DNA of 45,467 nt from a bacterium (GTDB taxonomy: Bacteria > BMS3Abin14), in assembly GCA_029210545.1 (NCBI GenBank), contig JARGFV010000007.1, forward strand, positions 1 through 45,467, in the 5' to 3' direction. Of the stretch, positions 8,770-41,825 are shown in pieces. Position 1 is the first letter of the stretch, and each line of letters begins with the position of its first letter. The translations under genes were made by a program, and so were the position numbers. The notes under the pieces are model-generated. The model saw nothing but the letters and a program-made list of their open reading frames with translations. It made no database searches and had not been told where the DNA came from.

Positions 8770-9387
8770 ATGGATCTTTCCAGAGACAAATTCCATTTGG
8801 ACAACGAACTCCGCGAAGCGGGCTACACCCTCATCGCCGGTGTGGACGAGGCAGGTCGCGGGCCCCTTGCGGGGCCGGTTTTTGCTGCCGCTGTCATCCT
8901 GTCCCCGGGAAACGGCCTCCCTCAGGCTCTTGACAGCAAGAAGATCTCCCCCACCCGGCGGGAGAAGCTGTGCCGGCAGATCCAGGAGGAGGCCCTGGCG
9001 TGGCAAGTGGCCCGGATCGAGCACAGCGTCATCGACGAGATCAACATCCTCCGGGCGACCTTGAAGGCCATGGTCGAGGCGGTGAAGAACCTTTCCCGTA
9101 CCCCCGAAATGATCCTGGTGGACGGCGCGCAGACGCCCTTCGTGAATTCCCACTCGAAGGCCATTCGAAAGGGCGATTCGATCTCCCAATCCATCGGCGC
9201 CGCCTCCATCCTGGCCAAGGTCCATCGCGACCGGGTCATGGCCGCCTACCACGAGGAGTATCCCCTCTACGGATTCGACCGCCACAAGGGATACGGCACA
9301 CAGGAACACATGGAGGCCATCGCCCTCCTCGGCCCGAGCCCCATACATCGCAGATCATTTGCTGGTGTCAAAGAACACTGCAAATAA
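8770..9387 (+). CDS. rnhB: Ribonuclease HII
   Basis: RNase HII removes ribonucleotides from DNA and the RNA strand of hybrids. The 205-residue protein carries the catalytic GVDEAGRGPLAGPV motif (the DE pair near residue 24), DSKKISPTRRE, the second acidic cluster in MILVDG and the C-terminal HKGYGTQEHMEA with the motif-V histidine region. The ATG at 8770 has little SD. The upstream sequence is heptamer-like. The position after rplS and before yraN is conserved in many bacteria. Confidence 0.96.
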   Translation: MDLSRDKFHLDNELREAGYTLIAGVDEAGRGPLAGPVFAAAVILSPGNGLPQALDSKKISPTRREKLCRQIQEEALAWQVARIEHSVIDEINILRATLKAMVEAVKNLSRTPEMILVDGAQTPFVNSHSKAIRKGDSISQSIGAASILAKVHRDRVMAAYHEEYPLYGFDRHKGYGTQEHMEAIALLGPSPIHRRSFAGVKEHCK

Positions 9388-9388
9388 C

Positions 9389-9495
9389 CTGCGTATGTGC
9401 GTGGATGAGTACGTGCGTGTATGCGTTTGAGGCTTTTCTGATCCATCGCGATCACGCTCCACCCACACACGCTCCACGCAACTACGCTATACGAA
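9389..9495. repeat. 8-nt degenerate arrays in inverted orientation (TGCGTGNN)
   Basis: TGCGTATG TGCGTGGA TGAGTACG TGCGTGTA runs at 9390-9421. Reverse-type blocks (CACGCTCC, CACGCTCCACGCA, CTACGC) lie at 9453-9487. A related composite at 11871-11950 shares the 13-mers GTATGTGCGTGGA (inverted) and CACGCTCCACGCA (direct). Together they fill the rnhB-yraN spacer. Confidence 0.55.
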
Positions 9496-9527
9496 CATCA
9501 TGGCCCCCACTTTGCAATTCATCCCTC

Positions 9528-9989
9528 ATGTCCAGACAAGAACCAGAACACCTACGTACCGGAGACCGCGGCGAATCGCTGGCTGCCTGGTTCCTTCGGC
9601 TGAAGGGGTACCGCATCCTGGAACGGAACTTCGAATGCCGCTGCGGGGAGATCGACATCGTCGCCTGGAAAAAGGGAACTCTTGTCTTCGTGGAAGTGAG
9701 GACAAGGAAAGACGGGTCGCTGGTCGCCCCCTTAAACTCGGTAACCCCCGTAAAAGCGGCGAAGATCATCGACACCGCACGCTGGTACCTGGCCGGGGTG
9801 GCCCGCCCCCTTCCTCCCTGCCGGTTCGACCTGGTCGCAGTAACACCTCTGGGGCCTCGTCACCAGGTAAACCACATCGCCGGCGCCTTCGACACGACCA
9901 CGGGAGAGTATGTCCTCGGCAGGCGGATCTCCGCCGCACGCAGTCGCCGCCGGTTTCCTCCCCGCAGGAAACGTAATACCGGCAAATGA
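9528..9989 (+). CDS. yraN: YraN family protein (UPF0102), nuclease-fold
   Basis: This protein of 153 residues starts at the ATG of 9528 (MSRQEPEH). The longer open frame upstream is only a shadow of rnhB. The family core is clear: GESLAAWFLRLKGYRILERNF, then CGEIDIVAWKKGTLVFVEVRTR, which contains the restriction-endonuclease-like E-x-D...E-V-K/R pattern. The C-terminus is basic (RRRFPPRRKR). The molecular role is not established; relatives are linked to DNA repair or recombination. It is the last gene of the plus-strand ribosomal/RNase HII group. No clear SD is seen. Confidence 0.9.
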   Translation: MSRQEPEHLRTGDRGESLAAWFLRLKGYRILERNFECRCGEIDIVAWKKGTLVFVEVRTRKDGSLVAPLNSVTPVKAAKIIDTARWYLAGVARPLPPCRFDLVAVTPLGPRHQVNHIAGAFDTTTGEYVLGRRISAARSRRRFPPRRKRNTGK

Positions 9990-10436
9990 TCGCTCTTCGT
10001 GAGATAGATATCAAATCTCACGTCTCAGATCTCAAAACAGGGGCTTTCGCTCCCTTCACTTGCCCCCTGGCACCCCGCACTCTTCTTTTTCGTGCTCTTC
10101 CCCGCGACCCCGCCTGCCCCGAGCTTACCGGCCATGAGCTTGTCGAATGGTCGAGGGGCGTCCCCGCGCCCCGGGCCCGGATCCTTTCTCCGGGCCCGGG
10201 GCGAAAACACGGTTTCTCCGGTACCCCGACAGGGGGCCGGACAAAACCATTCGCGGATTTCGAGTTTCTTCTGGTTTTACTTCCCCAAAAAACATGGTAG
10301 ATTACGCGCGGAAGTTGGAAAATTCCGCCCGGGGGGGCAATTTGTCAATACCGGCACGTAAATACCTTCCCAACCCTTCCGGTATCTACCCGCACTGCCT
10401 CCAGGGAGCAGGATTGTCACGGGATGGAGATGGTAG
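9990..10436. other. 447-nt intergenic region with heptamers and a GC hairpin
   Basis: No credible gene is seen; the open frames here are mutually overlapping and lack recognisable content. The region contains a heptamer array at 10008-10035 (ATATCAA, ATCTCAC, GTCTCAG, ATCTCAA). It also has a very strong hairpin at 10167-10203, a perfect 15-bp stem (CGCCCCGGGCCCGGA with TCCGGGCCCGGGGCG) with a 7-nt loop. The latter could insulate the yraN group from the regulator gene. The 3' part should hold the promoter of the sigma-54 activator, but I find no convincing consensus. Confidence 0.5.
10167..10203. other. 15-bp perfect GC hairpin
   Basis: Stem 10167-10181 pairs with 10189-10203 around the loop TCCTTTC. 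All but one pair are G-C. It lacks a U-tract (AAAAC follows), so it is not a canonical terminator on the plus strand. Confidence 0.6.
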
Positions 10437-11855
10437 ATGACAGGGGTTAACGTTCTCATCGTCGACGACGAAAAGGCCATCAGGGATGGCCTGTCCCGGG
10501 TACTGGAGAGCGAGGGGTTCAACACCGAACTCAGCGACAGTGGTTACTCCGCGCTGGAAGAGCTTCAATCCAGCGATTTTCAACTCGTCATCACTGATCT
10601 GAAGATGCCCGGAATGAGCGGCATGGAGGTTTTAAACGCAATCACCATCCTCCAGCCCAATGTCCCCGTTATTCTCATCACCGGCTACTCCACCGTGGAA
10701 AACGCCGTTGAGGTTATGAAAAAAGGCGCCTTTGACTACCTGGCCAAGCCGTTCACTCCCGACCAACTCCTTGATAAAGTCCGCAAGGCCCTCGATCATC
10801 GGGCGTTCCTGTTAGAGGAGCACTCCCCCGCCCGGCACTTGAGGGAGCAGATCGGGTTCGACACCATGGTGGGCCACAGCGCAGCCCTCGAGAAGGTGTT
10901 CTGGAGGATCAACCAGGTCGCCCCCACTGACAGCACCGTGCTTATCACCGGCGAGAGCGGCACCGGCAAGGAACTGGCGGCAAGGGGCATCCACCATGTC
11001 AGCCCGCGCCGGCAAAAACCGTTCATGGCCATCGACTGCACGACCCTCGTTGAGAGCCTCCTGGAAAGCGAGCTGTTCGGTCACATCAAGGGGTCTTTCA
11101 CAGGGGCGGTCCAGACCAAGAAAGGCCTGTTCCAGGTAGCAGACGGCGGGACCTTGTTCCTCGACGAGGTTTCCAATATCAGTCCGGCCATCCAGGCCAA
11201 GCTCCTGCGCGTCATCCAGGAGATGGTGATCACTCCCATCGGAGGGACGAAAACGATCCCCATCGATATCCGCCTTATCGCCGCCACCAACATGGATCTC
11301 AAGGAGATGGTGGCCGAGGGCACCTTCCGTGAGGACCTTTACTACAGGCTCAACATCGTGCCGATCCAGATCCCGCCATTACGCGAACGTGAGGGCGACC
11401 TTACTCTCCTTGCAAGTCATTTCATGAAAAAGTACTCCGAGGAGATCGGCAAGGACATACGGGGTATGGCGCCGGGAGCCATGAACGTGCTCAAGCGCTA
11501 CCCCTTCCCGGGCAACGTCAGGGAGCTCGAAAACGTCATTGAGAGGGCGATCGTGCTTGCGAAAGGCAACCTCATCCAGGCCGGAGACCTGGAGATCCAG
11601 GCTCCCCTTTGTGAAAACGGCATCCTCGACACCGAACGCGTTCCGAAAAGCACCGAGGAGCTCAAGTACATGAAGAAAAAGCTCCGTGAAGACGCTGTCC
11701 GGCCCCTGGAACACGCCTTTCTCCTGGACGCCCTGGAACGCAACGGATGGAACGTCACCCGCGCAGCCGAGGACGTTGGGATGCTGAGGCCTAATTTCCA
11801 GGCCCTGCTGAAAAAACAGGGGATTTCGTTGAAGGACCGTGAGGCCGGCTCCTGA
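10437..11855 (+). CDS. NtrC-family sigma-54-dependent response regulator
   Basis: The 472-residue protein has three parts. The receiver domain has LIVDDEKAIRDGL, phosphoacceptor Asp54 in VITDLKMPGMSG and Lys in YLAKPF. The AAA+ domain has Walker A GESGTGKE, Walker B GTLFLDEV and arginine-finger-type FREDLYYRLNIV. A C-terminal Fis-like HTH (NGWNVTRAAEDVGMLRPNFQALLKK) follows. The sigma-54-contacting loop reads GSFTGA instead of GAFTGA. SD GGAG precedes the ATG. It converges with the di-haem histidine kinase at 11960, its likely partner. The obvious local target is the -24/-12 promoter at 19536. The pairing is inference from position, and the domain calls are firm. Confidence 0.93.
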   Translation: MTGVNVLIVDDEKAIRDGLSRVLESEGFNTELSDSGYSALEELQSSDFQLVITDLKMPGMSGMEVLNAITILQPNVPVILITGYSTVENAVEVMKKGAFDYLAKPFTPDQLLDKVRKALDHRAFLLEEHSPARHLREQIGFDTMVGHSAALEKVFWRINQVAPTDSTVLITGESGTGKELAARGIHHVSPRRQKPFMAIDCTTLVESLLESELFGHIKGSFTGAVQTKKGLFQVADGGTLFLDEVSNISPAIQAKLLRVIQEMVITPIGGTKTIPIDIRLIAATNMDLKEMVAEGTFREDLYYRLNIVPIQIPPLREREGDLTLLASHFMKKYSEEIGKDIRGMAPGAMNVLKRYPFPGNVRELENVIERAIVLAKGNLIQAGDLEIQAPLCENGILDTERVPKSTEELKYMKKKLREDAVRPLEHAFLLDALERNGWNVTRAAEDVGMLRPNFQALLKKQGISLKDREAGS

Positions 11856-11870
11856 TGAAACCTGGTGGCC

Positions 11871-11950
11871 TGCGTAAGCGCGTGCGTGCGTAAAGCGAAA
11901 AAGCAGATATCGCATCGCAGTTACGCATGCACGCTCCACGCACATACTTA
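11871..11950. repeat. Inverted TGCGT-type array between the convergent regulator and kinase genes
   Basis: TGCGTAAGCGCGTGCGTGCG at 11871, followed by TAAAGCG, is answered by TTACGCATGCACGCTCCACG at 11921 followed by CACATACTTA. The two halves are partly complementary and could fold into a hairpin that ends transcription from both sides. It shares 13-mers with the array at 9389-9495. Confidence 0.5.
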
Positions 11951-11959
11951 CCTTTACAA

Positions 11960-13510
11960 TCACACCGGCAGTGTGATCGAAAATGTCGTTCCCTCATCCA
12001 CCTTGCTGTACACTTCCACCGTACCGCCGTGCCCTTCCACGATTCCGTAGGATACCGATAGCCCGAGACCTGTCCCCCGGGCTCCCTTCGTGCTGAAAAA
12101 CGGATCGAAAACCTTTACGAGATTTTCTTCCGGGATCCCGAATCCGGTGTCCTGTATTCTGACCACGACAGCGTCTCCGGTGAGATCCATCCCGGTCCAG
12201 AGGGTCAGCGTTCCCCCCTCCTCCATGGCCTGGCTGGCGTTTAAAAACATGTTGATGAACACCTGTTCCATCTGTCCCGAATCGATGAGAAGGTCCGGCA
12301 GATTATTTGCGTACTCCCGAACGATGGAGATATCGTAGAAAGAGGAGAGGTGTTCCACCAGGCCAAGGGCTCGGTCCAGGGTGTCGTTGATGCTGTTCAT
12401 GCTCTTCCTGGGCTCTGTCTTTCGGGAAAAATCCAGAAGGTTCTTGACGATCCTGGCGCAGCGGTCGGCTTCTTCGGTGATTGTGTCCAGGTCCTGTTTG
12501 AACTCCGGTACGAGCTTGACGTTCTTGTCGATGATGGAAGCGTGGATCAGGATCCCGGTTAAAGGGTTGTTGAGTTCGTGGGCGATCCCCGCGGCGAGTT
12601 CGCCCAGGGAGGCCAGCTTTTCTGAGCGGATGAGCACCGACTGCATCTCCTGGATCTGTTTTGTCCTCTCCTCTACCCGGCTTTCCAGGGTCGCCGCCCA
12701 CTGGTCCCTGTCCTCCCTGGCCTTTTTCAGGCTGCCGGTCATCTCGTTGAACGCTTCCGCAAGCTCTCCAAGTTCGTCGTTGGGAGCGTCTTTAATGATG
12801 CGCCAGTCCCCCCTGGACAGGGCACGTGTATGGTCCAGGAGGGTATTCACCGGCTGCGTGATGAGTTTGCGGGTCAGAAGGTTCAGGCACAGGGACAGGG
12901 CCACGACCAGGAACACGATCTCTATGAGGATGTTGTTCCGGTAGGCCGCCATCTGGGTCACGATGCCGGAGGTGGAGACCGTGATATCCAGGACACCCAG
13001 GAGGTTGACGTCAGACGGATGGTAGTGGCATTGAGCCTCATAGCATCCCGGTTCGTTCCGGATGGCCCTCGTAACCGCCAGGACCTCTTCCCTGTCCCGG
13101 TCGACGAACAAACGGCTTCGATCCATGGCAGGGACATCCACCTTCGTGGAGTTTCCCATGTGGCACATCCGGCAACTGGGATCCTCCTGCTTGTCGATCC
13201 GGGTGCTCACTTCCTTTTTGTCCAGGGAAAACTGGACGACCCCGTTTTTGTCGATAAGCCGGACGTTCTTGATGTTCTCCTGTTTCCCCGCCCGATTCAT
13301 GAGATGGTATGCCTCTTCGACATGGCCCCCCAGCATGGCGCTATGGGTTGTTTGAAGGATGGTCTCGGACAGGTTATCTATATCCCGGGTGTACAGCTCC
13401 ATGAACGCCCCTTTCAGGGCGGCAATGTTAAAGAGGGTGAACACGGTCATGGTGAACATCAGAACAATCGCGCTGATGATTGAGAACTTGATCATCAGAC
13501 CAAAGCGCAT
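11960..13510 (-). CDS. Di-haem periplasmic sensor histidine kinase
   Basis: The start is placed at ATG 13510 because AGGAGGGG stands 7 nt before it; this gives 516 residues. TM1 (10-32) is followed by a periplasmic domain with two haem c attachment motifs, CRMCH (113-117) and the rarer CX4CH form CYEAQCH (156-162). TM2 (193-212), HAMP (ITQPVNTLLDH onward) and a coiled coil come next. The kinase core has H-box GIAHELNNPLTGI (His311), an N-box with FLNASQAM, G1 DTGFGIPEE and G2 GTGLGLSVSYGIV. Covalent haem would let it sense redox state, oxygen, NO or CO; the ligand is unknown. It ends the ten-gene minus cluster and faces the NtrC-type regulator. Two hairpins precede it. Confidence 0.93.
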   Translation of the reverse strand: MRFGLMIKFSIISAIVLMFTMTVFTLFNIAALKGAFMELYTRDIDNLSETILQTTHSAMLGGHVEEAYHLMNRAGKQENIKNVRLIDKNGVVQFSLDKKEVSTRIDKQEDPSCRMCHMGNSTKVDVPAMDRSRLFVDRDREEVLAVTRAIRNEPGCYEAQCHYHPSDVNLLGVLDITVSTSGIVTQMAAYRNNILIEIVFLVVALSLCLNLLTRKLITQPVNTLLDHTRALSRGDWRIIKDAPNDELGELAEAFNEMTGSLKKAREDRDQWAATLESRVEERTKQIQEMQSVLIRSEKLASLGELAAGIAHELNNPLTGILIHASIIDKNVKLVPEFKQDLDTITEEADRCARIVKNLLDFSRKTEPRKSMNSINDTLDRALGLVEHLSSFYDISIVREYANNLPDLLIDSGQMEQVFINMFLNASQAMEEGGTLTLWTGMDLTGDAVVVRIQDTGFGIPEENLVKVFDPFFSTKGARGTGLGLSVSYGIVEGHGGTVEVYSKVDEGTTFSITLPV

Positions 13511-13542
13511 AAGAATCCCCTCCTGAAGCGCAGCTGTCTGCA

Positions 13543-13570
13543 AAGCGTGTCGAAAACTCTTGACACGCTT
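13543..13570 (-). other. Leader hairpin 2 upstream of the sensor kinase
   Basis: AAGCGTGTC (13543-13551) and GACACGCTT (13562-13570) form a perfect 9-bp stem with a 10-nt loop, just upstream of the kinase SD. With the hairpin at 13615-13638 it forms a two-stem leader that may set kinase levels relative to the upstream genes. Confidence 0.5.
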
Positions 13571-13607
13571 CTGGCCAGATCGGGAAACCAGAACCGGACA
13601 CAGGAAA

Positions 13608-14138
13608 TCAGGAAGGCGAAACTCCCCTGAGTTTCGCCTTCTTCACCTTCCTCTCTTCCTTCCTGATCTGGTCTGCGCACCAGATGCGCATCTGGTAGTT
13701 CTCCAGCCCCATGATGACGAGACCCGAAACGAAAACCGCCCAGTAGGTCTCGCTGCCTGCCGCGGCATAGGAGAAAAAGATGTAAAAAGAGGCGATGTAG
13801 AAAAGGTGGGACCAGCCGTGGTAGCCACCCTGCCCCTTGGCCAGGCGCGCCAGGGTGAGGGTCAGTGCTGAAAAAACGTAAACGATGAGGGCTACACCGA
13901 TGAGTTCCAGGGGAGGAGAGGCGCCCAGAACCTCCCGGACCCTGGCCGAAAGAGGGGGAAGCAGCCGGCTGTTGGGGATGGCGAGGACAGTGATGAGGAT
14001 GAAGGCCGCAAGCCCGTACGACCCGGTCCGGGATTGGGCTCTGAGATTCCGAATCCTTCCCTCAGCCTCGAACCGCTTATCCAGGCCGGAAGGCGCCTCC
14101 TCCGACGGGGGGGAGGCGCTACCTTGTTTTTCGTCCAT
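13608..14138 (-). CDS. Four-TM membrane protein of unknown function in the respiratory/sensor cluster
   Basis: The 176-residue protein is not one I recognise. The N-terminal 40 residues are hydrophilic and cytosolic-looking. Four hydrophobic helices follow, roughly at 41-56, 77-101, 108-129 and 131-150, and the C-terminus is Lys/Arg-rich (RKEERKVKKAKLR). No cysteine-haem motif is present; a few histidines and tryptophans lie in or near the helices (GGYHGWSHLFYIASF). It lies between the kinase-less haem sensor and the haem kinase and is likely co-transcribed with both. A role as membrane partner of the sensors or of the NrfD complex is a guess. Its last nine codons form a perfect hairpin. Confidence 0.8.
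   Translation of the reverse strand: MDEKQGSASPPSEEAPSGLDKRFEAEGRIRNLRAQSRTGSYGLAAFILITVLAIPNSRLLPPLSARVREVLGASPPLELIGVALIVYVFSALTLTLARLAKGQGGYHGWSHLFYIASFYIFFSYAAAGSETYWAVFVSGLVIMGLENYQMRIWCADQIRKEERKVKKAKLRGVSPS
13615..13638 (-). other. Leader hairpin 1, overlapping the 3' end of the four-TM gene
   Basis: GGCGAAACTC (13615-13624) and GAGTTTCGCC (13629-13638) form a perfect 10-bp stem with a 4-nt loop. It is made from the codons just before the stop of the four-TM gene and is followed on the minus strand by TTCCTGATTTCC. This is an attenuator or mRNA-processing candidate before the kinase. Confidence 0.5.
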
Positions 14139-14187
14139 GAGGCCCTCTGTGTTTCATGAAACCGGATACCGCGAAACCGGTGTTGGA

Positions 14188-15048
14188 TCACGAAGGGGTC
14201 CCGCCCGACTCAGGATTCCCGTTGTCGGTGGTGCCGTCCTCGTCTCCGGGCAATTGAGCTCCCCGCCGCTCGAGGGCCATGACCTGTACCAGTTCACCCA
14301 GACGCTCGATCTCGGCGGATCCCCTGGGGATATCCACACCGATACGACCCTCACAACACTCGGAGGCGTAGTCGACCAGTCCCCTTAACGGCTGCATCAC
14401 ATTGCGCCACAGGAGAGCCGTCACGCCGCCCACCGTCAGGAATAGAATCATGACGCAAAAAATGACCAGACGCAACCTCAGCATTGCCAGGGATTTCATC
14501 AGCTTTTCCTGGGACAACCCCATATCCAGGGTTCCGAGGAGTTGCTTTTCTTCGGGATGAAAATGACACGCGGCCGAGGAACAATCAGGATCGTTGAAGA
14601 TGGGCGTCATCAGATAGAGGATCTTCTCCTTGTTTTCATTGGTATGGACAATGGCCCGGTCCATCAGGCCCAGCCTGGTAACCGGCTTCGAGCCTGTGTG
14701 GCACCGGGCGCAAAGAGGTGATCCGCGATCGGGCACGGTGCCGATCTCTTCGATGTTGCTGGAATGGAGGATCACACCTGTGCACTTGAAGATCCGGGCA
14801 TACTTCACCGGCTCCTGGGCCCCGATGTTCAGCATCATCTGGTCAATGCTGTCGTGGTCCGACTGGAGCATGGCGTACCTCATGGACCTTAGGATCGTGT
14901 CCGAGAGGGCGGCTTCGTACCGCACCGAATCTTTCATCATATCTGCCTTGACGAAGGAGTACAGCAGGATGCAGCAGACGATGGTAAACCCGGTCACCAC
15001 CATGGCCACATTAATGATCTCTTTTGTGGCAAACTGCCTGAACATCAC
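14188..15048 (-). CDS. Di-haem HAMP sensor protein lacking a kinase domain
   Basis: This 286-residue protein has TM1 (12-33) and a periplasmic domain with CARCH (113-117) and CX4CH CSSAACH followed by FHPEEKQLLGTLDM (156-162). TM2 (192-212) is followed by a HAMP-like stretch (MQPLRGLVDYASE...RLGELVQVM). It then stops after a short acidic tail. Haem motifs fall at exactly the same residue numbers as in the kinase encoded at 11960-13510, and both have the C-x-C-H-x-H-P...LLGxLD block, so the sensory halves are paralogous. Without an output domain it may heterodimerise with the kinase or report to the pseudo-receiver. It follows the NrfD gene after a strong hairpin. Confidence 0.88.
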   Translation of the reverse strand: MMFRQFATKEIINVAMVVTGFTIVCCILLYSFVKADMMKDSVRYEAALSDTILRSMRYAMLQSDHDSIDQMMLNIGAQEPVKYARIFKCTGVILHSSNIEEIGTVPDRGSPLCARCHTGSKPVTRLGLMDRAIVHTNENKEKILYLMTPIFNDPDCSSAACHFHPEEKQLLGTLDMGLSQEKLMKSLAMLRLRLVIFCVMILFLTVGGVTALLWRNVMQPLRGLVDYASECCEGRIGVDIPRGSAEIERLGELVQVMALERRGAQLPGDEDGTTDNGNPESGGTPS

Positions 15049-15065
15049 CTGCTCCCTTCTGCAAG

Positions 15066-15105
15066 GCCCGCGACCTGCCCGGATGACACCGGGCGGGCCG
15101 CGGGC
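15066..15105 (-). other. Strong intercistronic hairpin between the NrfD and haem-sensor genes
   Basis: GCCCGCG (15066-15072) pairs with CGCGGGC (15099-15105), and the inner CCCGG/CCGGG blocks extend the stem to about 16 paired bases around a short loop. On the minus strand it follows the NrfD stop and precedes the sensor SD, without a U-tract. It could lower transcription of the sensor genes or protect the respiratory mRNA from 3' decay. Confidence 0.55.
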
Positions 15106-15127
15106 TTTTCACGCAAGGTCGTCTTAT

Positions 15128-16465
15128 CTATCTCATCTCCCTGGAAACCGTTGAGGGCTGGGCCACGGCTCCATGGCTGTGAACCTTTTCGGTCGCTTTC
15201 GCATAGGCCTCCACCGGCACCTTTTTCCAGGAATACACGATGGGGAGGCGGTAAAGGATGAACCGGTAGGTCGCGATGTAAAGCCCGAACAGGGTGAAGG
15301 CGATGATCCACTCAAAAATATGGGGGATCTCCTGGTAGAGGTTCCAGTTAAAGGCGATGATGGCGGTGTTGAGTCGGTTCAGGGCGATTCCGAGCACTGC
15401 GATAAGAGCCCCGAACCGGACGATCCCGACCCGCTGGTTGCGGATGCCGTAGGCGAAGAGGACCATGGGCGCGATCACTCCAAAAAGAAGCTCGAAGGAA
15501 AACCATTGTCCCCAACCTGTGGCCAGGTATGCCCACTCGTTGTCGTGGGCGATACCGAGGAGTTTGATGGTCAGATAAGTGATGAGGGCCATGCTCGACC
15601 CCCTGGCCAACCCGATGGTGAGCCGGTCAAGGTTCTCCCTGAACGCCTCGTCGGCTCGCCAGAACATGGTCTTTTTCACGATTGAGCTCACCACGATGAC
15701 CATGCACAGCCCGCCGAAGATGGATGACACGAAGAAGAAGATCCACAGGAACTCCTGAGAGTACCACAGGGGATGGACCTTGGAGGGCGCATAGGTGAAC
15801 AGTGCTCCCAGGGCCCCCTGATGGAGAGTAGACAGGATGATACCGGCGATGGTGAGCCCGATGGTCATCTTCTTGATGAACTGCTTGGCCATTGGCCATT
15901 GAGCCCACTCGAAGAACGCCTCGGACACCTCCAGGATCTGGACGGTCAGGTAGGTGGCCACATGCCAGCCCACCAGGAACAGGACCGCCGCGGTCCCCCA
16001 GGCCACCACCATCGGGTATGGCAGGCGCCATGGCTGACCCAGGTCACAGAGGAGGTAAACCACCGCGAAAAAGTAACCCAGCAGCCCGTTTAAAAGGGCG
16101 ATGCGCAGGATGGGCTTGAAATCCTTGCGGCCGAAGAGCTCAACCGTGGTCCCCATTAGGAACCCGGATGCCGAGAGGGGCACCATGACGAAAAGCCCGA
16201 AACCGAGGAACAGCCCCCAGGGGTAATCATTGGAGGAGTGGGTGACGACTCCCAGGCCGAAGATGAACCTGTAAATGATGAGGGGGAACCCGACGGCAAA
16301 GAGCGCCCCCAGGATCCAGTTTAACGGGTTTCGGACCGCCTGGCGCAGGTACTCGCGAAGAGTCAGGCCGAGGAGCAGCTTTTCCAGGAAGCTCCAGCGG
16401 CGTCCGGAACCTTCGTCGGCCACGGAATCCACGGGACGATAACCTGTTTTCACAAGGGATTTCAT
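15128..16465 (-). CDS. NrfD/HmcC-like quinone-interacting membrane subunit
   Basis: The 445-residue integral membrane protein has about ten hydrophobic helices. Signatures of the NrfD/PsrC/HybB/DsrP superfamily are the quinone-pocket region YPWGLFLGFGLF, LCDLGQPWRLPYP and the STLHQGALGALF helix. Members exchange electrons between (mena)quinone and a periplasmic iron-sulfur protein and carry no cofactor themselves. The start is set by the SD GGAGG before ATG 16465, 2 nt after the stop of the iron-sulfur gene. With that protein and the pentahaem cytochrome it makes a three-part complex resembling the Cbc4 (CbcSTU) type of Geobacter or the O/P/J part of Dsr. The exact substrate cannot be read from sequence. 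Confidence 0.92.
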   Translation of the reverse strand: MKSLVKTGYRPVDSVADEGSGRRWSFLEKLLLGLTLREYLRQAVRNPLNWILGALFAVGFPLIIYRFIFGLGVVTHSSNDYPWGLFLGFGLFVMVPLSASGFLMGTTVELFGRKDFKPILRIALLNGLLGYFFAVVYLLCDLGQPWRLPYPMVVAWGTAAVLFLVGWHVATYLTVQILEVSEAFFEWAQWPMAKQFIKKMTIGLTIAGIILSTLHQGALGALFTYAPSKVHPLWYSQEFLWIFFFVSSIFGGLCMVIVVSSIVKKTMFWRADEAFRENLDRLTIGLARGSSMALITYLTIKLLGIAHDNEWAYLATGWGQWFSFELLFGVIAPMVLFAYGIRNQRVGIVRFGALIAVLGIALNRLNTAIIAFNWNLYQEIPHIFEWIIAFTLFGLYIATYRFILYRLPIVYSWKKVPVEAYAKATEKVHSHGAVAQPSTVSREMR

Positions 16466-16467
16466 GG

Positions 16468-17409
16468 CTATATATCCTCCCTCTTCTCGGTTGCGGGTTT
16501 CTCTTCGGCCCCCTCACCACCCCGGGTTGCCAGGCGGTGGAACCCGAGGAACAGGGCGGGCCAGATGGACAATACCATGGGAACATTGGAGAGAAAAGCC
16601 TGTGCGTTGGCCAGGATCGGTTCTTTCTGGAGGGTGGTGTCGAACCCCACCTCCTCGAAGGGAACGCCGGAAAGGTACATCCAGGACGTCCCTCCTACCT
16701 CATTTTCCCCGTAAAGGTGGCCCACGTAGCGGCCCGGGTTGACCCGGATACGCTCATAGGCAACCTTTATCAGGTTCTTCCTGTGCCCGAAGGTCAGGAC
16801 CTCCTGGGGACACGCTTCCACGCAGGCAGGCGGCCTTCCGAACTTGAGCCGGGTGTCGTAGCAGAAAATGCACTTGCGGATCACCGGGTTGAAGGCGCTG
16901 GAATAGGAGTAAGCCGGAATCCGGAAGGGGCACGCGACCATGCAGTTCCGGCACCCCACGCAGACCTTGGAGTTGTAGATCACCGCCCCCTCCTTCGTCT
17001 TCGTGTAGGCGTTGACGAAGCAGCTGGTCAGGCAGGCCGGCTCGTTACAATGGTTGCACTGGATCTTCCGGTACGCCGGCTGCCCTTCCTTGCCGGCCTC
17101 GTACCGGTTCACCACGGTAAAAGCGTTCTCGTCGGTCCTTCTCTTCTGTGTGCCCCCGTGGTGCAGCTCATCGAATACCGAGTGGTCGTCGAAGGGCACC
17201 GCGGGAGCGGGCAGTTTCTGTTCTTCGTTGCACGCGGCCTCACAGGTCCGACAGCCGATGCAGCGGGTCAGGTCCACCAGGACTCCCATTCCATCGGGGT
17301 AGCCGGTGAAGCCGGCAGCACCGATAGCTTTCCCGGACAAGGTGAACGTCCCTGCTGCCGCTCCCGCCAGGCTCACCGAAAGAAACTTTCTTCGGGTCAT
17401 CTTACTCAT
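16468..17409 (-). CDS. Tat-exported 4x[4Fe-4S] ferredoxin-like subunit
   Basis: The start is set at ATG 17409 (SD GGGAGGAAGAC), giving 313 residues that begin [16 protein letters not shown], a Tat signal with the twin arginines at 6-7. Cysteine clusters are [11 protein letters not shown] (50-60), [13 protein letters not shown] (118-130), [11 protein letters not shown] (150-160) and CIFC...ACVEAC (180-200), enough for four [4Fe-4S] centres as in HybA, DsrO and PsrB proteins. A hydrophobic stretch near the C-terminus ([15 protein letters not shown]) may anchor it to the periplasmic face next to NrfD. It would pass electrons between the NrfD quinone site and the pentahaem cytochrome. Confidence 0.93.
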
Positions 17410-17478
17410 GTCTTCCTCCCTCATATATCTGGCGTTTCACTGACAAGGTTCCGCTCCCCCTGAATCATCCTCAAGGAC

Positions 17479-18003
17479 TCAGTGAGCGGAGCTGGTACCT
17501 TCACCAGATGGCGCATATTTTCCCGAGTGGTAAAAAGCGTCTCCGGCCTCGGTCCTCTCGTGGCAATCCTCACATCCGACAGGACCGCCCATTTCGTTGT
17601 GACAGTTGAGACAGTTGAGGTGGTAAGCGGCTTTCAATCCCGGCTTGTCGATGTGGTAGACGCTGGGGTCCGTCTCCTTGGCAGTAACGGCCTCGGCGGA
17701 GAAGGGGTCGACAGCGTGGCATGTCTGGCACGTCTGGGCCTCCAGGGTGTCCTCGGGGCCGTGACACCGCGCGCACTTCTCGTTGGTTGTGGGAACACCC
17801 GCGGCATGGTGGTGGCATTCGGTACAGTCGGCCGCGATATCAAGGTGCATATCGTGGTCGAACTCGGCTCCCCCATAAAGGTGAGCCAGGTTATCAAGGG
17901 TCACTGTCTCCGGCAGCTTGAGAGTATCTCCCTGGCCGCTTAAGGGGAGACAGATCACCATCAGCACCATCACCGAGCCGGCAATCCAATTGAACGGTTT
18001 CAT
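17479..18003 (-). CDS. Pentahaem periplasmic cytochrome c
   Basis: The start is at ATG 18003, directed by AGGAGGAAGATC; the upstream open frame is not translated in my view. The protein has 174 residues with a signal peptide (1-24) and five CXXCH haem sites at residues 60, 77, 92, 131 and 144. Surrounding histidines (for example FDHDMHLDIAADCTECHHH) are of cytochrome c3/c7 type and imply bis-His ligation. It would be the periplasmic electron carrier or terminus of the adjoining iron-sulfur/NrfD complex. Its haem is presumably attached by a System II machinery that includes the CcsA-type protein at 1580. Confidence 0.92.
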   Translation of the reverse strand: MKPFNWIAGSVMVLMVICLPLSGQGDTLKLPETVTLDNLAHLYGGAEFDHDMHLDIAADCTECHHHAAGVPTTNEKCARCHGPEDTLEAQTCQTCHAVDPFSAEAVTAKETDPSVYHIDKPGLKAAYHLNCLNCHNEMGGPVGCEDCHERTEAGDAFYHSGKYAPSGEGTSSAH

Positions 18004-18076
18004 GATCTTCCTCCTGTTCACAGGTCCGCCCCGGCGTCCGGCGCCGGGAAGGTTCTGGCCGATCCCCGGCCCATGC

Positions 18077-18280
18077 TCACTCACTTACTCTCGTGAACGA
18101 ATCGGCCTCCCGCTCTGAAGGCGTCTTGATGACGTACTTGTAAAAGAGCGGAAAGATGGCGAAGAATGCGACGCAGATCAGGTACTCCACGGCCTTGATG
18201 TAGTTGTAGAAGTCCACCAGAGTGTAGACCTTGACCACATCGCCGACGGAGCCGAACAGCTGTCGTATCAGGTCCAGCAT
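18077..18280 (-). CDS. Small single-TM membrane protein of the respiratory cluster
   Basis: The start is taken at ATG 18280 (MLDLIRQLFGSVGD), preceded by GGGAGGGAG, giving 67 residues. One membrane helix (about 34-52, YLICVAFFAIFPLFYKYVI) is followed by a charged tail. The gene lies directly before the cytochrome gene and is likely co-transcribed with it. I do not recognise the family. Short one-helix subunits often stabilise respiratory complexes, and that is the simplest reading here. Confidence 0.75.
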   Translation of the reverse strand: MLDLIRQLFGSVGDVVKVYTLVDFYNYIKAVEYLICVAFFAIFPLFYKYVIKTPSEREADSFTRVSE

Positions 18281-18320
18281 GAATCTCACTCCCTCCCGGC
18301 GCACCAGGCGCCTGTTATAG

Positions 18321-18336
18321 CCCGCTTTAAAGCGGG
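18321..18336. other. Perfect 16-bp palindrome in an intercistronic gap
   Basis: CCCGCTTTAAAGCGGG at 18321-18336 sits in the 130-nt gap between two small-protein genes of the minus cluster. It could be an operator or an RNA hairpin. Confidence 0.45.
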
Positions 18337-18410
18337 GTGGCGAGGAGGGCCCGCCTCACAGCGCGCCCCTCAGCTCGCCCCACAGCTCATACCAGAGACC
18401 TTCGTCCCGT

Positions 18411-18671
18411 TTACTCGATGATCTCCCGGCCCGTATCGGTAACCGCGACCTTTTTTCTGGCGGTGACCTTTTTCGCGAAAGCCGAGATCGTGCCCATCAT
18501 CAGGATCAGGGCCGGAACCATTTGGGCCACGATGATGAGGGCGACGACACCCAGGAACAGCAGGACCATGATCCCGCTCTGGTAGGTCTGGGTCGTGTCC
18601 ACGGCCCATGCGTACCCCGCTGTGGACAGAACGACCGCCGTCATGTTCAGCAAAGCTCTCAGCGTTTTCAT
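18411..18671 (-). CDS. Small membrane protein with QxVPAL motif, paralogue 2
   Basis: The 86-residue protein starts behind a strong SD (AAGGAGGATGTC). It has a signal-peptide-like N-terminus (to about 23, GYAWA), a short linker (VDTTQTYQSG), one long hydrophobic helix MVLLFLGVVALIIVAQMVPALILMM and a basic tail (FAKKVTARKK). The helix aligns with that of the 91-residue protein at 19187-19462: LLFL...GVV...Q-x-VPAL-x-L with a following S-x-F. So the two are paralogues on either side of the receiver-like gene. The function is unknown to me. Their position at the head of the cluster suggests a membrane signalling or scaffold role. Confidence 0.8.
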   Translation of the reverse strand: MKTLRALLNMTAVVLSTAGYAWAVDTTQTYQSGIMVLLFLGVVALIIVAQMVPALILMMGTISAFAKKVTARKKVAVTDTGREIIE

Positions 18672-18698
18672 GACATCCTCCTTCTCTGCGCCAAAGCT

Positions 18699-19115
18699 TC
18701 AGGAATGTCCCTTGGCCGCGGCACCAACCGGCCCTGATAGCCCGGTGATGTTGGCGAAAGCACACCTGACAGCCTGGAGCAGTTCGTCCCTGTCCTCCTC
18801 CCGTGCCGGCTTGAGGGCATGGTAAAAGATCCCCTCGCGCCTGAGCTTTCGAAGGAGGGGCAGGGATTCCTCGTTGGACACGAGGATTATAGTGAGGTTT
18901 TTGTTGCACTTTTTCAGGATCGGAATGAGGTCGCCCGCCGGCATGTTGTCGAACACGTTTCCCAGCAGTACGACCGGGGCTTCCTTCCTGAGGACATCCT
19001 TCAAGACCAGGTCCACCGAATCGGGAGCAACGATCTGGTAATCCTTGTCTCCGAAAACCTTCATGACATGATCCCTGGTCCTGGGATCCTCGTCAGCGAT
19101 TATCAGCAGTCTCAT
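18699..19115 (-). CDS. Receiver-like protein lacking the phosphoacceptor aspartate
   Basis: The start is at ATG 19115 (MRLLIIADEDPRTRD) after GGGAGAAGAGG, giving 138 residues. The fold elements of a CheY-like receiver are all there: beta-1 LLIIADED with an acidic pocket, beta-4 TIILVSNEE with the Thr/Ser position, and the conserved Lys in HALKP (102). At the phosphorylation site, however, beta-3 reads APVVLLGNVFDNMP: glycine replaces the usual aspartate, and the nearest Asp is four residues on. It is therefore probably a pseudo-receiver that cannot be phosphorylated normally. It sits between the two QxVPAL membrane-protein genes and may bind one of them or the kinase. Confidence 0.85.
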   Translation of the reverse strand: MRLLIIADEDPRTRDHVMKVFGDKDYQIVAPDSVDLVLKDVLRKEAPVVLLGNVFDNMPAGDLIPILKKCNKNLTIILVSNEESLPLLRKLRREGIFYHALKPAREEDRDELLQAVRCAFANITGLSGPVGAAAKGHS

Positions 19116-19186
19116 GGCCTCTTCTCCCTGTAAGCAGCCTGTGTCTATTTCCGGCACCCATTCGGACCGGAAGGCCAGCCGCTCCA

Positions 19187-19462
19187 TTAGACCTGCTCAC
19201 TGCCGGCAGCATCGACCTTATGGCTGCTCCGCTTGAATACCGAAACAAGAAGGGAGCTGAACAGAACCAGCGCTGGTACCAGCTGGAGCAGAACGACAAC
19301 CCCCAGGAAGGCCAGGAAAAGCAGGAGCATGGGGCTCATCCCGCCCGAACCAGGCGCGCCGGCGCTATCGGCATTGGCCAGCGTCGCGGTAAGGAGAACC
19401 GGGCAGATCATCGCCGAAACCCGCCTCCTCAGGACCATCAGCCTTTCCACATTCCTTTTCAT
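19187..19462 (-). CDS. Small membrane protein with QxVPAL motif, paralogue 1; first gene of the cluster
   Basis: The 91-residue protein starts at ATG 19462 behind AGGAGGTAAAGGTC. The N-terminus is basic and hydrophobic (signal-like, cut perhaps after LANA). A Ser/Gly/Pro linker comes next, then one long helix MLLLFLAFLGVVVLLQLVPALVLF and a basic tail (SVFKRSSHK). It is paralogous to the protein at 18411-18671. It is the first gene after the sigma-54 promoter, with a 5' leader of roughly 60 nt. No known family is recognised. Confidence 0.8.
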   Translation of the reverse strand: MKRNVERLMVLRRRVSAMICPVLLTATLANADSAGAPGSGGMSPMLLLFLAFLGVVVLLQLVPALVLFSSLLVSVFKRSSHKVDAAGSEQV

Positions 19463-19535
19463 GACCTTTACCTCCTCCTTCTCTTGGGGCCCCCTGCTCC
19501 ATCATTGGAGCCTGTCCCTCTACGCTTATGCTTAG

Positions 19536-19552
19536 GGCATCAAACGTGCCAA
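19536..19552 (-). promoter_or_regulatory. Sigma-54 (-24/-12) promoter of the haem-sensor/respiratory cluster
   Basis: Read on the minus strand, the site is TTGGCACGTTTGATGCC. It matches the -24 block TTGGCACG fully, has the obligatory GG-N10-GC spacing and matches TGC of the -12 block. Transcription would begin near 19525, about 60 nt before the first start codon at 19462. A sigma-54 activator gene lies at the far end of the same locus. Confidence 0.8.
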
Positions 19553-19859
19553 AAGGGATCAGTCACGTATATTTTTTCAAGTTCTTGTTTTTAAAAGGCT
19601 TTTATAAAACAATTCCAACGGTCCGGCAGCAGCTTAATAGGGAAACGTATATAAAAAATATGGGAATACAAAGACAAATCACTGGGCCAGGATAGTGGTA
19701 AGCGCATAACTATATGTAATTGTAAGCTTTTATTTATATTGAGGGGTGTATGGTGGAGATATACAGGCACGCGCCCCTGGAGATCAGGCTACAGGGGCCC
19801 GTACAGTGAGTGCATTAAGTGCAGTTTAGTGCAGCAATGCGCTTTTGCACTCATGCACC
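19553..19859. other. AT-rich divergent control region between the cluster and comM
   Basis: No gene is visible. The stretch 19560-19740 is far more AT-rich than its surroundings and has the near-repeats ACGTATATTTTTT (19572) and ACGTATATAAAAAATATG (19645). It is a likely place for activator binding upstream of the sigma-54 site and for the comM promoter. Further on are a GCCCCTG/CAGGGGC hairpin (19773-19798) and three AGTGCA repeats (19808-19834) closed by TGCACTC (19846-19852). I could not identify a clear paired enhancer site. Confidence 0.5.
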
Positions 19860-19969
19860 GGACTCTTGAGACCAATTTGACACATTTTTTGGCTTCAGGT
19901 TTGCACGGATCATCCCAATATCAGCTAACTTCAGCCAAAAAGGAGGAGACAAATTGGTCTCAAGAGTCC
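19860..19969. repeat. Perfect 20-bp inverted repeat enclosing the comM SD and start codon
   Basis: GGACTCTTGAGACCAATTTG (19860-19879) is the exact reverse complement of 19950-19969. A nested 9-bp pair, TTTTTGGCT (19886-19894) with AGCCAAAAA (19933-19941), lies inside, and TGCAC blocks flank both arms. In an RNA hairpin the comM SD (AGGAGGAG) lies at and just beyond the base of the inner stem, largely in the internal loop, while the TTG start (19954) and the first five codons are in the outer stem. Confidence 0.85.
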
Positions 19970-21477
19970 TGTCGTGCACCATCAGCGGTCTCGAGGCGGT
20001 TCCCGTCCACGTGGAACTGGACCTCACCAACGGTCTCCCGGGGCTGACCATCGTGGGGATGGGGGACACAGCGGTCCGGGAGAGCAGGGAACGGGTTATC
20101 GCGGCCCTGAGAAACTCCGGGTACGAGCTGCCCCCCTCACGGGTCACGGTGAACCTGGCCCCCGCTGACCTGAAGAAGGAGGGAAGCCGCTTCGACCTTC
20201 CTATCGCCCTGGGGATACTCTCCGCCTTGAGGGCGTTTCCGTCCGACGCCCTGGACGGCTACCTGGTCATGGGAGAGCTCTCCCTGACCGGAGAGATCGT
20301 GGGCCGGGAGGCGGCTTTTCCCGCGGCCCTCCTGGCACGAAGGGCGGGGTTGACCGGGATGATCCTGCCGGACGAGATGGCAGCGGAAGCCTCCCTCGCC
20401 GACGGGTGCATGTCGCTGCCTGTCCGCAGCCTGATGGAGGTCACCGAGTTTCTCAGGGGACAAAGGGAACTGAACGCCGTAGCCCCTGTCTCTGTCCGGA
20501 TACCGGACAAAAGCCCCGACCTTTCAGAGGTGGCAGGGCAGGAGATGGCGGTGAGAGCCCTTACGATCGCCGCTTCGGGAGGACATAATATCCTTTTTTC
20601 CGGACCACCGGGCTCAGGCAAGACCATGTTGTGTAAAAGGCTTCCCGGCATCCTGCCATCGTTATCCAACGACCAGGCCATGGAGGTCACCGCCATCCAC
20701 AGCGTAGCGGGACTCCTGTCCTACGGGGACGGGATCATCAGAACGCCCCCCTTTCGCGCTCCGCACCACACTATCTCCCACGCAGGCCTCGCAGGCGGCG
20801 GCTCCAACCCGAGGCCGGGAGAGGTCACCCTCGCCCACCGCGGAGTGTTGTTTTTAGACGAGATGTCGGAGTTCTCCCGCTCGGCGCTGGAAACATTGAG
20901 GCAGCCGCTGGAGGACAAAAGGATCGTGGTATCGAGGGCTGCCAGGTCGGTGAGTTATCCGGCAGACTTTCTCCTCGCCGGGACCGCCAACCCCTGCCCT
21001 TGCGGCTACCTTGGCCACGACACGAGACCTTGCACCTGTCCCCCTTCGGCGGTGGCCCGCTACCGGCGCCGCATCTCCGGGCCCCTCATGGACAGGATCG
21101 ACCTCGTCGTCCCGGTTCGGGCCCTCGAACCCGGGATCATCGCCGAGGGAGGACACGGGACCCGGTCTCAGTCGGTAAGGGAAAAGGTCCTGGCCTCCCG
21201 CGCCGTGCAGGCCGAGAGGGCGGCGGGAGGGATGCCGGTCACCAACGCGGCCCTGTCCCCCGAACAGCTGCGAGACGTGTGCCCCCTGGAGCCGGCCCAC
21301 AGGAAGATCATGGACGGTGCGGTACGCAACCTGGGGCTGACGGCCCGGGGCTACCACAGGATCATGCGGGTGGCCCGCACCATCGCGGACATGGAGGGGG
21401 TGGAACACGTCACACCTGAGCACCTGGGAGAAGCGCTGCAATACAGGCCTGTTATGGAGGGACCGATAAGGTTCTAG
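19954..21477 (+). CDS. comM: ComM/YifB family Mg-chelatase-like AAA+ ATPase
   Basis: ComM is a hexameric helicase that extends branch migration when incoming DNA is integrated in natural transformation; relatives are widespread also in species not known to be competent. The 507-residue protein has the N-terminal ChlI-like domain (DLTNGLPGLTIVGMGDTAV, VTVNLAPADLKKEGSRFDLPIALGIL), Walker A SGPPGSGKTMLCKRLPGILP, Walker B GVLFLDEM and the cysteine-rich NPCPCGYLGHDTRPCTCP before the sensor region RISGPLMDRIDL. The start is TTG at 19954 with SD AGGAGGAG, inside a 20-bp inverted repeat that could block initiation. That control is inference. Confidence 0.95.
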   Translation: MVSRVLSCTISGLEAVPVHVELDLTNGLPGLTIVGMGDTAVRESRERVIAALRNSGYELPPSRVTVNLAPADLKKEGSRFDLPIALGILSALRAFPSDALDGYLVMGELSLTGEIVGREAAFPAALLARRAGLTGMILPDEMAAEASLADGCMSLPVRSLMEVTEFLRGQRELNAVAPVSVRIPDKSPDLSEVAGQEMAVRALTIAASGGHNILFSGPPGSGKTMLCKRLPGILPSLSNDQAMEVTAIHSVAGLLSYGDGIIRTPPFRAPHHTISHAGLAGGGSNPRPGEVTLAHRGVLFLDEMSEFSRSALETLRQPLEDKRIVVSRAARSVSYPADFLLAGTANPCPCGYLGHDTRPCTCPPSAVARYRRRISGPLMDRIDLVVPVRALEPGIIAEGGHGTRSQSVREKVLASRAVQAERAAGGMPVTNAALSPEQLRDVCPLEPAHRKIMDGAVRNLGLTARGYHRIMRVARTIADMEGVEHVTPEHLGEALQYRPVMEGPIRF

Positions 21478-41727: not shown

Positions 41728-41825
41728 TGGCGGAAGTGCATGGGAATCGAACCCACCGTACCGGGTTTTAACCGGCACCACTGGATTTGAAGTCCAGGAG
41801 GGCCACCAGTGCCCTACGCACTCCC
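41728..41825 (-). tRNA. selC: tRNA-Sec (UCA anticodon)
   Basis: The 98-nt tRNA has an encoded CCA. The acceptor is 8 bp (5' GGGAGTGC with 3' GCACTTCC, one G-U), followed by discriminator G and CCA. The T arm holds GGTTCGATTCC. The anticodon UCA (plus-strand complement at 41788-41790) is in a CUUCAAA loop on the stem CTGGA/TCCAG. The long variable arm is GTGCCGGTT...AACCCGGTAC-like. The extended acceptor and the UCA anticodon are diagnostic of selenocysteine tRNA. It reads UGA during SelB-dependent decoding. selA, selB and selD are not in the window. Confidence 0.96.

Follow-up and report, generated by a model that had tools for sequence, protein, structure and literature searches.

The window analysed here, a stretch of 45,467 nt of bacterial DNA (contig JARGFV010000007.1, assembly GCA_029210545.1), contains a minus-strand cluster of ten genes (19462-11960) and, convergent with the last of them, a gene for an NtrC-type activator. 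This locus is best described as encoding a sigma-54-regulated menaquinol:cytochrome oxidoreductase, with an Hmc-like core placed in a Cbc5-type control module. In view of the gene content, the conservation of the accessory genes as a block, the promoter, the enhancer and the sharing of these elements with a CbcBA-like complex, we consider it probable (about 0.7) that the module is a portable, haem-sensing sigma-54 unit driving interchangeable menaquinol:cytochrome c oxidoreductases, here the Hmc-like D-E-F-G. An earlier reading of this DNA from its letters alone (the sequence-only reading) had described the same ten genes and an activator convergent with the haem kinase; all were recovered, with coordinates unchanged:

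19187-19462, minus strand: gene A, QxxPA small membrane protein V1, 91 amino acids (no Pfam family)
18699-19115, minus strand: gene B, pseudo-receiver, phosphoacceptor Asp replaced by Gly
18411-18671, minus strand: gene C, QxxPA small membrane protein V2, 86 amino acids
18077-18280, minus strand: gene D, tentatively HmcD-like protein with one transmembrane (TM) segment, 67 amino acids counted from the second start
17479-18003, minus strand: gene E, pentahaem c-type cytochrome (cytochrome c7/c3; TmcA model 44 bits)
16468-17424, minus strand: gene F, Tat-exported [4Fe-4S] protein, HmcB-like (NF045715, 382 bits, cut-off 420)
15128-16465, minus strand: gene G, NrfD-type integral membrane protein, HmcC-like (NF045714, 368 bits, cut-off 550)
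14188-15048, minus strand: gene H, kinase-less dihaem sensor, CbcD-like by position (TM, Cache-like domain, TM, HAMP-like end)
13608-14138, minus strand: gene I, 4-TM protein, CbcE-like by position (no known fold match)
11960-13510, minus strand: gene J, dihaem sensor histidine kinase (HAMP, HisKA, HATPase)
10437-11855, plus strand: gene K, NtrC-type activator (receiver with Asp54, sigma-54 AAA+, HTH_8 helix-turn-helix), convergent with J

When genomes were scanned with G as the query, 80 loci were retrieved, 60 of them with enough flanking sequence for gene-content counts. H is present in 39 of these 60 Hmc-like loci, where it is accompanied by I and an upstream D (39 each), V (36), K (35), B (34) and J (25). 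The remaining 21 loci, labelled mostly as Desulfobulbales or relatives, hold none of V, B, H, I, J and K; E-F-G are present, usually with a D-like gene somewhere. The co-conservation search proposed by the sequence-only reading thus returns V, B, H and I as a block in 39 loci and their absence from 21, which argues that the accessory set is gained or lost as one unit and that the complex is able to exist without it. The 21 module-free loci, together with the Hmc-like character of F, G and D, also speak for a simpler explanation, namely an ordinary Hmc/Tmc-type operon next to which an unrelated two-component system happens to lie. Against the block co-conservation, the fixed promoter and enhancer architecture described below and the presence of K nearby in 35 of the 39 loci, this explanation is very improbable.

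The order V-B-V-D-E-F-G-H-I recurs in Desulfuromonadales-labelled records and in the small phylum of the window, where V was found in all seven genomes searched and G in six of the seven genomes at least 90% complete; the downstream end (G-H-I, J, K) recurs in one Tharpellota contig. At a larger scale, 146 sampled genomes from the class of Malonomonas rubra contained V in 115 cases, an HmcC-like G in 62 and H-type domains in 127 (E<=1e-15). H never scored better than about 1e-22 in the listed V-negative genomes, and reached 1e-42 or better in nearly all V-positive ones.

The sequence-only reading had tied the sensors and small proteins to the NrfD complex. They do occur without it, which is the very finding that this reading had named as its refutation: 53 of the 115 V-bearing genomes have no NrfD protein, and in genomes lacking G a 7-haem cytochrome, a PF01292 cytochrome b561 protein and, in many cases, a 12-haem cytochrome are bordered by J, V, B, H, I and a K that scores about 780-865 bits against the window-based profile. 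A J-K-V-B-V-H-I set with sigma-54 site and enhancer stands beside a CbcBA-like complex in many Desulfuromonadia, and some loci (L052, L057/L135, L137-L138) contain both complexes. A module specific to NrfD was rejected, as V and H also accompany CbcBA-like operons. In the tree of K the attached complex switches four times, at least three of these switches being forced by starred branches; the tree of H has six switches, at least three of them forced. Because gene order matches the published cbcEDCBA, H and I appear to hold the CbcD and CbcE positions, an assignment made from order and composition and not from direct comparison with the G. sulfurreducens sequences. Homologues of H, I, V and B beside a K-type activator, a sigma-54 site and the enhancer are what places the accessory set with Cbc5.

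Three regulatory features precede gene A:

19536-19551, minus strand: sigma-54 -24/-12 promoter TGGCACGTTTGATGCC, about 90 nt before gene A (also given as TGGCACGTTTGATGC, 19551-19537)
19646-19670, minus strand: weak, degenerate sequence where the second enhancer copy would be expected, at -104 to -110 (4/12 mismatches at best)
19747-19765, minus strand: palindromic enhancer TGTATATCTCCACCATACA (consensus TGTATA-N7-TATACA), its centre 205 nt upstream of the -24 element

Taken alone, the sigma-54 motif is not above chance in the window (one match within one mismatch, 2.6 expected); its significance comes from its position and its conservation across operons. Indeed, a site scoring at least 14.5 lies upstream of the first V gene in 82% (41/50) of Hmc-type operons and in 77% of 22 Cbc-type operons, compared with 5.2% of 610 control upstream regions, which confirms the site that the sequence-only reading had set at the head of the cluster. 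Sites of V-headed operons are mostly within 100 nt of the start, and one was found in all seven relatives examined from the window's small phylum. Upstream regions of K (4/60) and J (4/43) showed no clear excess of sites over background, and sigma-54 control of K or J themselves was rejected on this ground. The word ‘self-regulated’, applied by the sequence-only reading to the whole module, is consequently confined to the place of J at the operon end in this genome, and so holds weakly at best.

A gapped-palindrome search of 63 regions upstream of sigma-54 sites, compared with shuffled sequences, returned TGTATA-N7-TATACA in 34 regions versus at most four for any word in the shuffles; within one mismatch, the enhancer is found at 34 of 63 promoters (shuffled mean 0.06, maximum 1). 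It occupies two fixed positions, roughly 102 bp apart, whose centres lie at about -107 and -209 relative to the -24 element, and is the same in Hmc-type and in K-linked Cbc-type operons. In the 2.72-Mb genome, the copy of the window is the sole zero-mismatch match to TGTATAN7YATACA, while 0.03 matches within one mismatch would be expected in the window. Across 16 genomes the exact enhancer occurs in zero to two copies each, most of which precede the V operon, and the reversed-pattern control gave zero. Exact copies also lie before a 12-haem cytochrome gene in three genomes (G008, G009, G010), a sigma-54-like site accompanying the two that were read completely, and upstream of 9-haem cytochrome genes distant from the cluster (L168, L173); the latter are possible further members of the regulon.

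Another palindrome, TTCCTG-N5-CAGGAA, sits upstream of the sigma-54 site in CbcBA-type loci that lack the TGTATA enhancer, with contributions from L117, L118, L125, L126, L128, L137 and L139. Where their flanks could be read, the neighbours of these seven loci are other activators or a kinase of about 790 amino acids. We infer that TGTATA-N7-TATACA is the site bound by K. Of the single circuit postulated by the sequence-only reading, the outline holds: the conserved site, the enhancer at fixed distance and the block co-conservation link haem sensors, NtrC-type activator, sigma-54 and an electron-transfer operon. Membership of the sensors and small proteins in the NrfD complex does not, CbcBA-like loci carrying them as well.

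By Pfam and NCBIfam, protein E, with its five CxxCH motifs, is a pentahaem cytochrome related to c7/c3/TmcA; F carries a Tat signal and ferredoxin-type [4Fe-4S] motifs, and G is an HmcC/HybB-type NrfD protein. Both F and G are clear homologues of HmcB and HmcC that score below the equivalog cut-offs (382 versus 420 and 368 versus 550 bits), and the HmcD model NF045712 matches 16 of 19 D homologues (best 2e-5), the D of the window itself reaching 12.2 bits for a cut-off of 34. Because F is near HmcB, G near HmcC and D resembles HmcD, the catalytic core is, judging from these matches, Hmc-like and more than just NrfD-like. A plain Hmc operon was rejected on gene composition and on the scores under the model cut-offs. 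Family matches revealed no HmcE (NarI-like) or HmcF (CCG) among the ten cluster genes, the rest of the genome not being searched, and the cluster cytochrome, with five CxxCH in E, is not a 16-haem HmcA. The 7-haem CbcA and cytochrome b561 CbcB are likewise absent from the cluster; both are present in related loci. NetBCD, described as an Aeromonas hydrophila system, was set aside as a name for the complex.

Proteins H and J each have one CxxCH and one CX4CH motif, usually 43 residues apart, and their sensor parts are 30% identical. Of the two motifs, CX4CH is the more constant (69 of 72 H and all 45 J sequences); CxxCH occurs in 62 of 72 H and 38 of 45 J sequences. Searching with an H profile brings up two c-haem chemoreceptor domains of Geobacter, GSU0935 (E=4e-4) and GSU0582 (E=2e-3), through a part that precedes the haem motifs, and the AlphaFold model of H (predicted local distance difference test, pLDDT, 80) matches the Cache-type sensors WalK, CitA and DctB, as well as GSU0935 (3b42). 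Weak Cache-type Pfam matches were obtained for most of the 25 members of the H family (Mcp40H-20_sensor in 23, sCache_3_2 in 19, best about 2e-6), and nine of them match HAMP. The sensor fold of H and J is, on the model, that of a Cache-type extracytoplasmic sensor. Both proteins fall outside sCache_heme, having two haem motifs, of which CX4CH is the conserved one, and no Tll0287 match.

Besides the sensor, J contains HAMP, HisKA and HATPase domains, and K combines a receiver, a sigma-54 AAA+ domain and a Fis-type helix-turn-helix. The sequence elements expected of an NtrC/sigma-54 two-component system are found: receiver Asp, AAA+ domain, helix-turn-helix, adjacent kinase, -24/-12 site and an RpoN gene in the genome. 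A third, distant relative of the H/J sensors (24% identity) lies elsewhere in this genome (L003, G000:C24:359-1060). Three further H-like haem sensor genes (L155, L156, L157), without V or I, adjoin a 10-TM protein of about 1080 amino acids, whose GAF and SpoIIE phosphatase domains were verified for L155 only, and possibly constitute a separate haem-sensing system.

The nature of the signal has to be weighed at this point. According to a 2026 preprint (PMC12889525), nitric oxide (NO) is bound by single-haem Cache domains that form part of signalling proteins with fused modules, whereas stand-alone domains look redox-related. NO is thus a serious rival signal, the more so as H and J match the same structural group (GSU0935), and the operon would then serve a nitrosative-stress or nitrogen-oxide response. 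We hold this to be unlikely: the Tll0287 family model (PF11845, DUF3365) matches just one of the 25 H members (E=0.03), the conserved haem site is CX4CH and not CxxCH, the operon encodes quinone/cytochrome electron transfer, and the other partner of the module resembles CbcBA, a low-potential respiratory complex (PMC12307469, PMC10553843). The redox state of periplasmic haem is a plausible signal.

The remaining proteins expose three uncharacterised conserved families. Pseudo-receiver B gives a weak receiver match (Pfam/NCBIfam). In 19 of 19 aligned homologues its phosphoacceptor position is Gly or Ser, unlike in a canonical response regulator; one acidic-pocket Asp is retained in 17 of the 19, and the Lys position is Lys in 16 and Arg in three. 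The QxxPA proteins V share an invariant Phe, Gln and Pro, with Q and P of QxxP unvarying in 33 homologues, and B is fused to the second V protein as one polypeptide in five related loci. Because of these fusions, B is suggested to act at the membrane. The 4-TM protein I forms four long helices in an AlphaFold model of good confidence, for which no PDB match below E=1 was found; against Pfam and NCBIfam, neither V nor I gave a meaningful match.

Protein H could also be merely an electron-transfer subunit (a CbcD-type c cytochrome), with V, B and I as assembly factors and regulation left to J and K only. Indeed, H and I lie inside the operon beside the catalytic genes in both complex types, and CbcD (c cytochrome) and CbcE (membrane protein), whose positions they share, are listed with CbcC among the subunits of Cbc5 (PMC11434368). 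The homology of H to a histidine-kinase sensor, its Cache-like fold and its HAMP-like end argue otherwise, and the receiver-like B points to signalling. We regard this explanation as a real possibility, somewhat short of an even chance.

In the mechanism that we favour, D, E, F and G would form an Hmc-like menaquinone:cytochrome c oxidoreductase inside a sensing and accessory module made up of V1, B, V2, H, I, J and K. J would sense the periplasm through a Cache-like domain with two covalent haems and phosphorylate K, which would bind TGTATA-N7-TATACA about 107 and/or 209 nt upstream of the -24/-12 element, so that RNA polymerase with sigma-54 transcribes the operon. Whether redox state or NO, the signal is something that we infer, as are the roles of V, B, I and H; most likely it is the redox state on the periplasmic cytochrome/menaquinone side, in which case the complex would be produced given a suitable acceptor or donor potential. 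H, seen as a kinase-less copy of the J sensor retained in the operon even after exchange of the oxidoreductase, most likely serves as a link between complex and kinase, be it as co-receptor or as electron-relay subunit, and B, tethered to the membrane by the QxxPA proteins, most likely provides feedback or assembly control without phosphotransfer. More tentatively, and at rather less than even odds, a transferable control module made up of a haem-sensing kinase, its kinase-less twin, a membrane-held pseudo-receiver, the QxxPA proteins, the 4-TM protein and a paired enhancer of its own may have been re-attached in evolution to unrelated quinone:cytochrome oxidoreductases, with the pseudo-receiver, QxxPA proteins and H reporting the working state of the complex to the kinase.

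Several observations weigh against the portable haem-sensing module. J is present in only 25 of the 39 H-bearing Hmc loci, and in Geomonas a haem-less GAF/PAS kinase adjoins K. Ten of 72 H and seven of 45 J sequences lack the CxxCH haem, so that ‘dihaem’ is not a strict requirement. The window has just one good enhancer copy; recognisable enhancers were found in four of seven phylum relatives, the other three having a sigma-54 site without a clear one. Finally, the trees are rough, coming from quick searches, with open forks and long branches.

As for its surroundings, the cluster is bracketed by rnhB- and yraN-like genes (about 8770-9989) and a yifB/comM-like gene (19954-21477), names given by eye from the translations, and looks as if it were inserted within a housekeeping block (8770-21477). 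Between the cluster and the yifB/comM-like gene lies a 34-nt inverted repeat (arms 19857-19890 and 19939-19972, 48 nt apart, 82% complementary), with a 19-nt core that is the same on both arms and no further copy in the window. A selenocysteine tRNA gene is found at 41728-41825.

Since the switch, the helper proteins and the enhancer stand beside two different complexes, the control unit appears portable and its signal can be tested. This bears on the sensing of acceptor potential in metal- and electrode-respiring bacteria and on their choice among inner-membrane quinone oxidoreductases. A candidate sensor (J with H), a candidate operator sequence with its spacing and a predicted small regulon common to Hmc-like and CbcBA-like complexes are named here, each accessible to ordinary genetics in culturable Desulfuromonadales. 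As the sequence-only reading supposed, no description of this gene composition was found in open-access text; the gene set is, for all that, not unique to this genome.

Three known systems invite comparison. The c-haem Cache/PAS sensors GSU0582 (3b47), GSU0935 (3b42) and sCache_heme (PMC12889525) share with H and J an extracytoplasmic Cache-like domain with covalent haem c; H and J differ in their two haem motifs, with CX4CH conserved, in pairing a histidine kinase with a kinase-less paralogue, and in lacking a Tll0287 match. The Desulfovibrio Hmc system (hmcABCDEF, rrf1, rrf2) has HmcB- and HmcC-like subunits and, tentatively, an HmcD-like one in common with the window, and control of hmc expression is ascribed to rrf1 and rrf2 (PMC10924467). 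In contrast, the cluster of the window is without a 16-haem HmcA and an HmcE/HmcF-type gene, falls under the equivalog cut-offs of the models, and is regulated differently, by sigma-54 and a haem kinase. The Geobacter Cbc5/CbcBA locus resembles the window in its J/K neighbours, V-B-V, H, I and sigma-54 site, and K-linked Cbc loci of the Geobacter type (L140, L141, L147, L150, L153) have the same enhancer. Its activator in G. sulfurreducens is said to be the sigma-54 protein BccR (reportedly Joshi et al. 2021). Cbc5 includes a heptahaem CbcA and a b-type CbcB (PMC7726332), and CbcBA is reported to operate around -0.2 V where no better acceptor is present (PMC12307469, PMC10553843). The difference lies in the catalytic genes: a pentahaem cytochrome with HmcB-, HmcC- and HmcD-like proteins in the window, and a 7-haem cytochrome, a cytochrome b561 and a 12-haem cytochrome in Cbc5-type loci.

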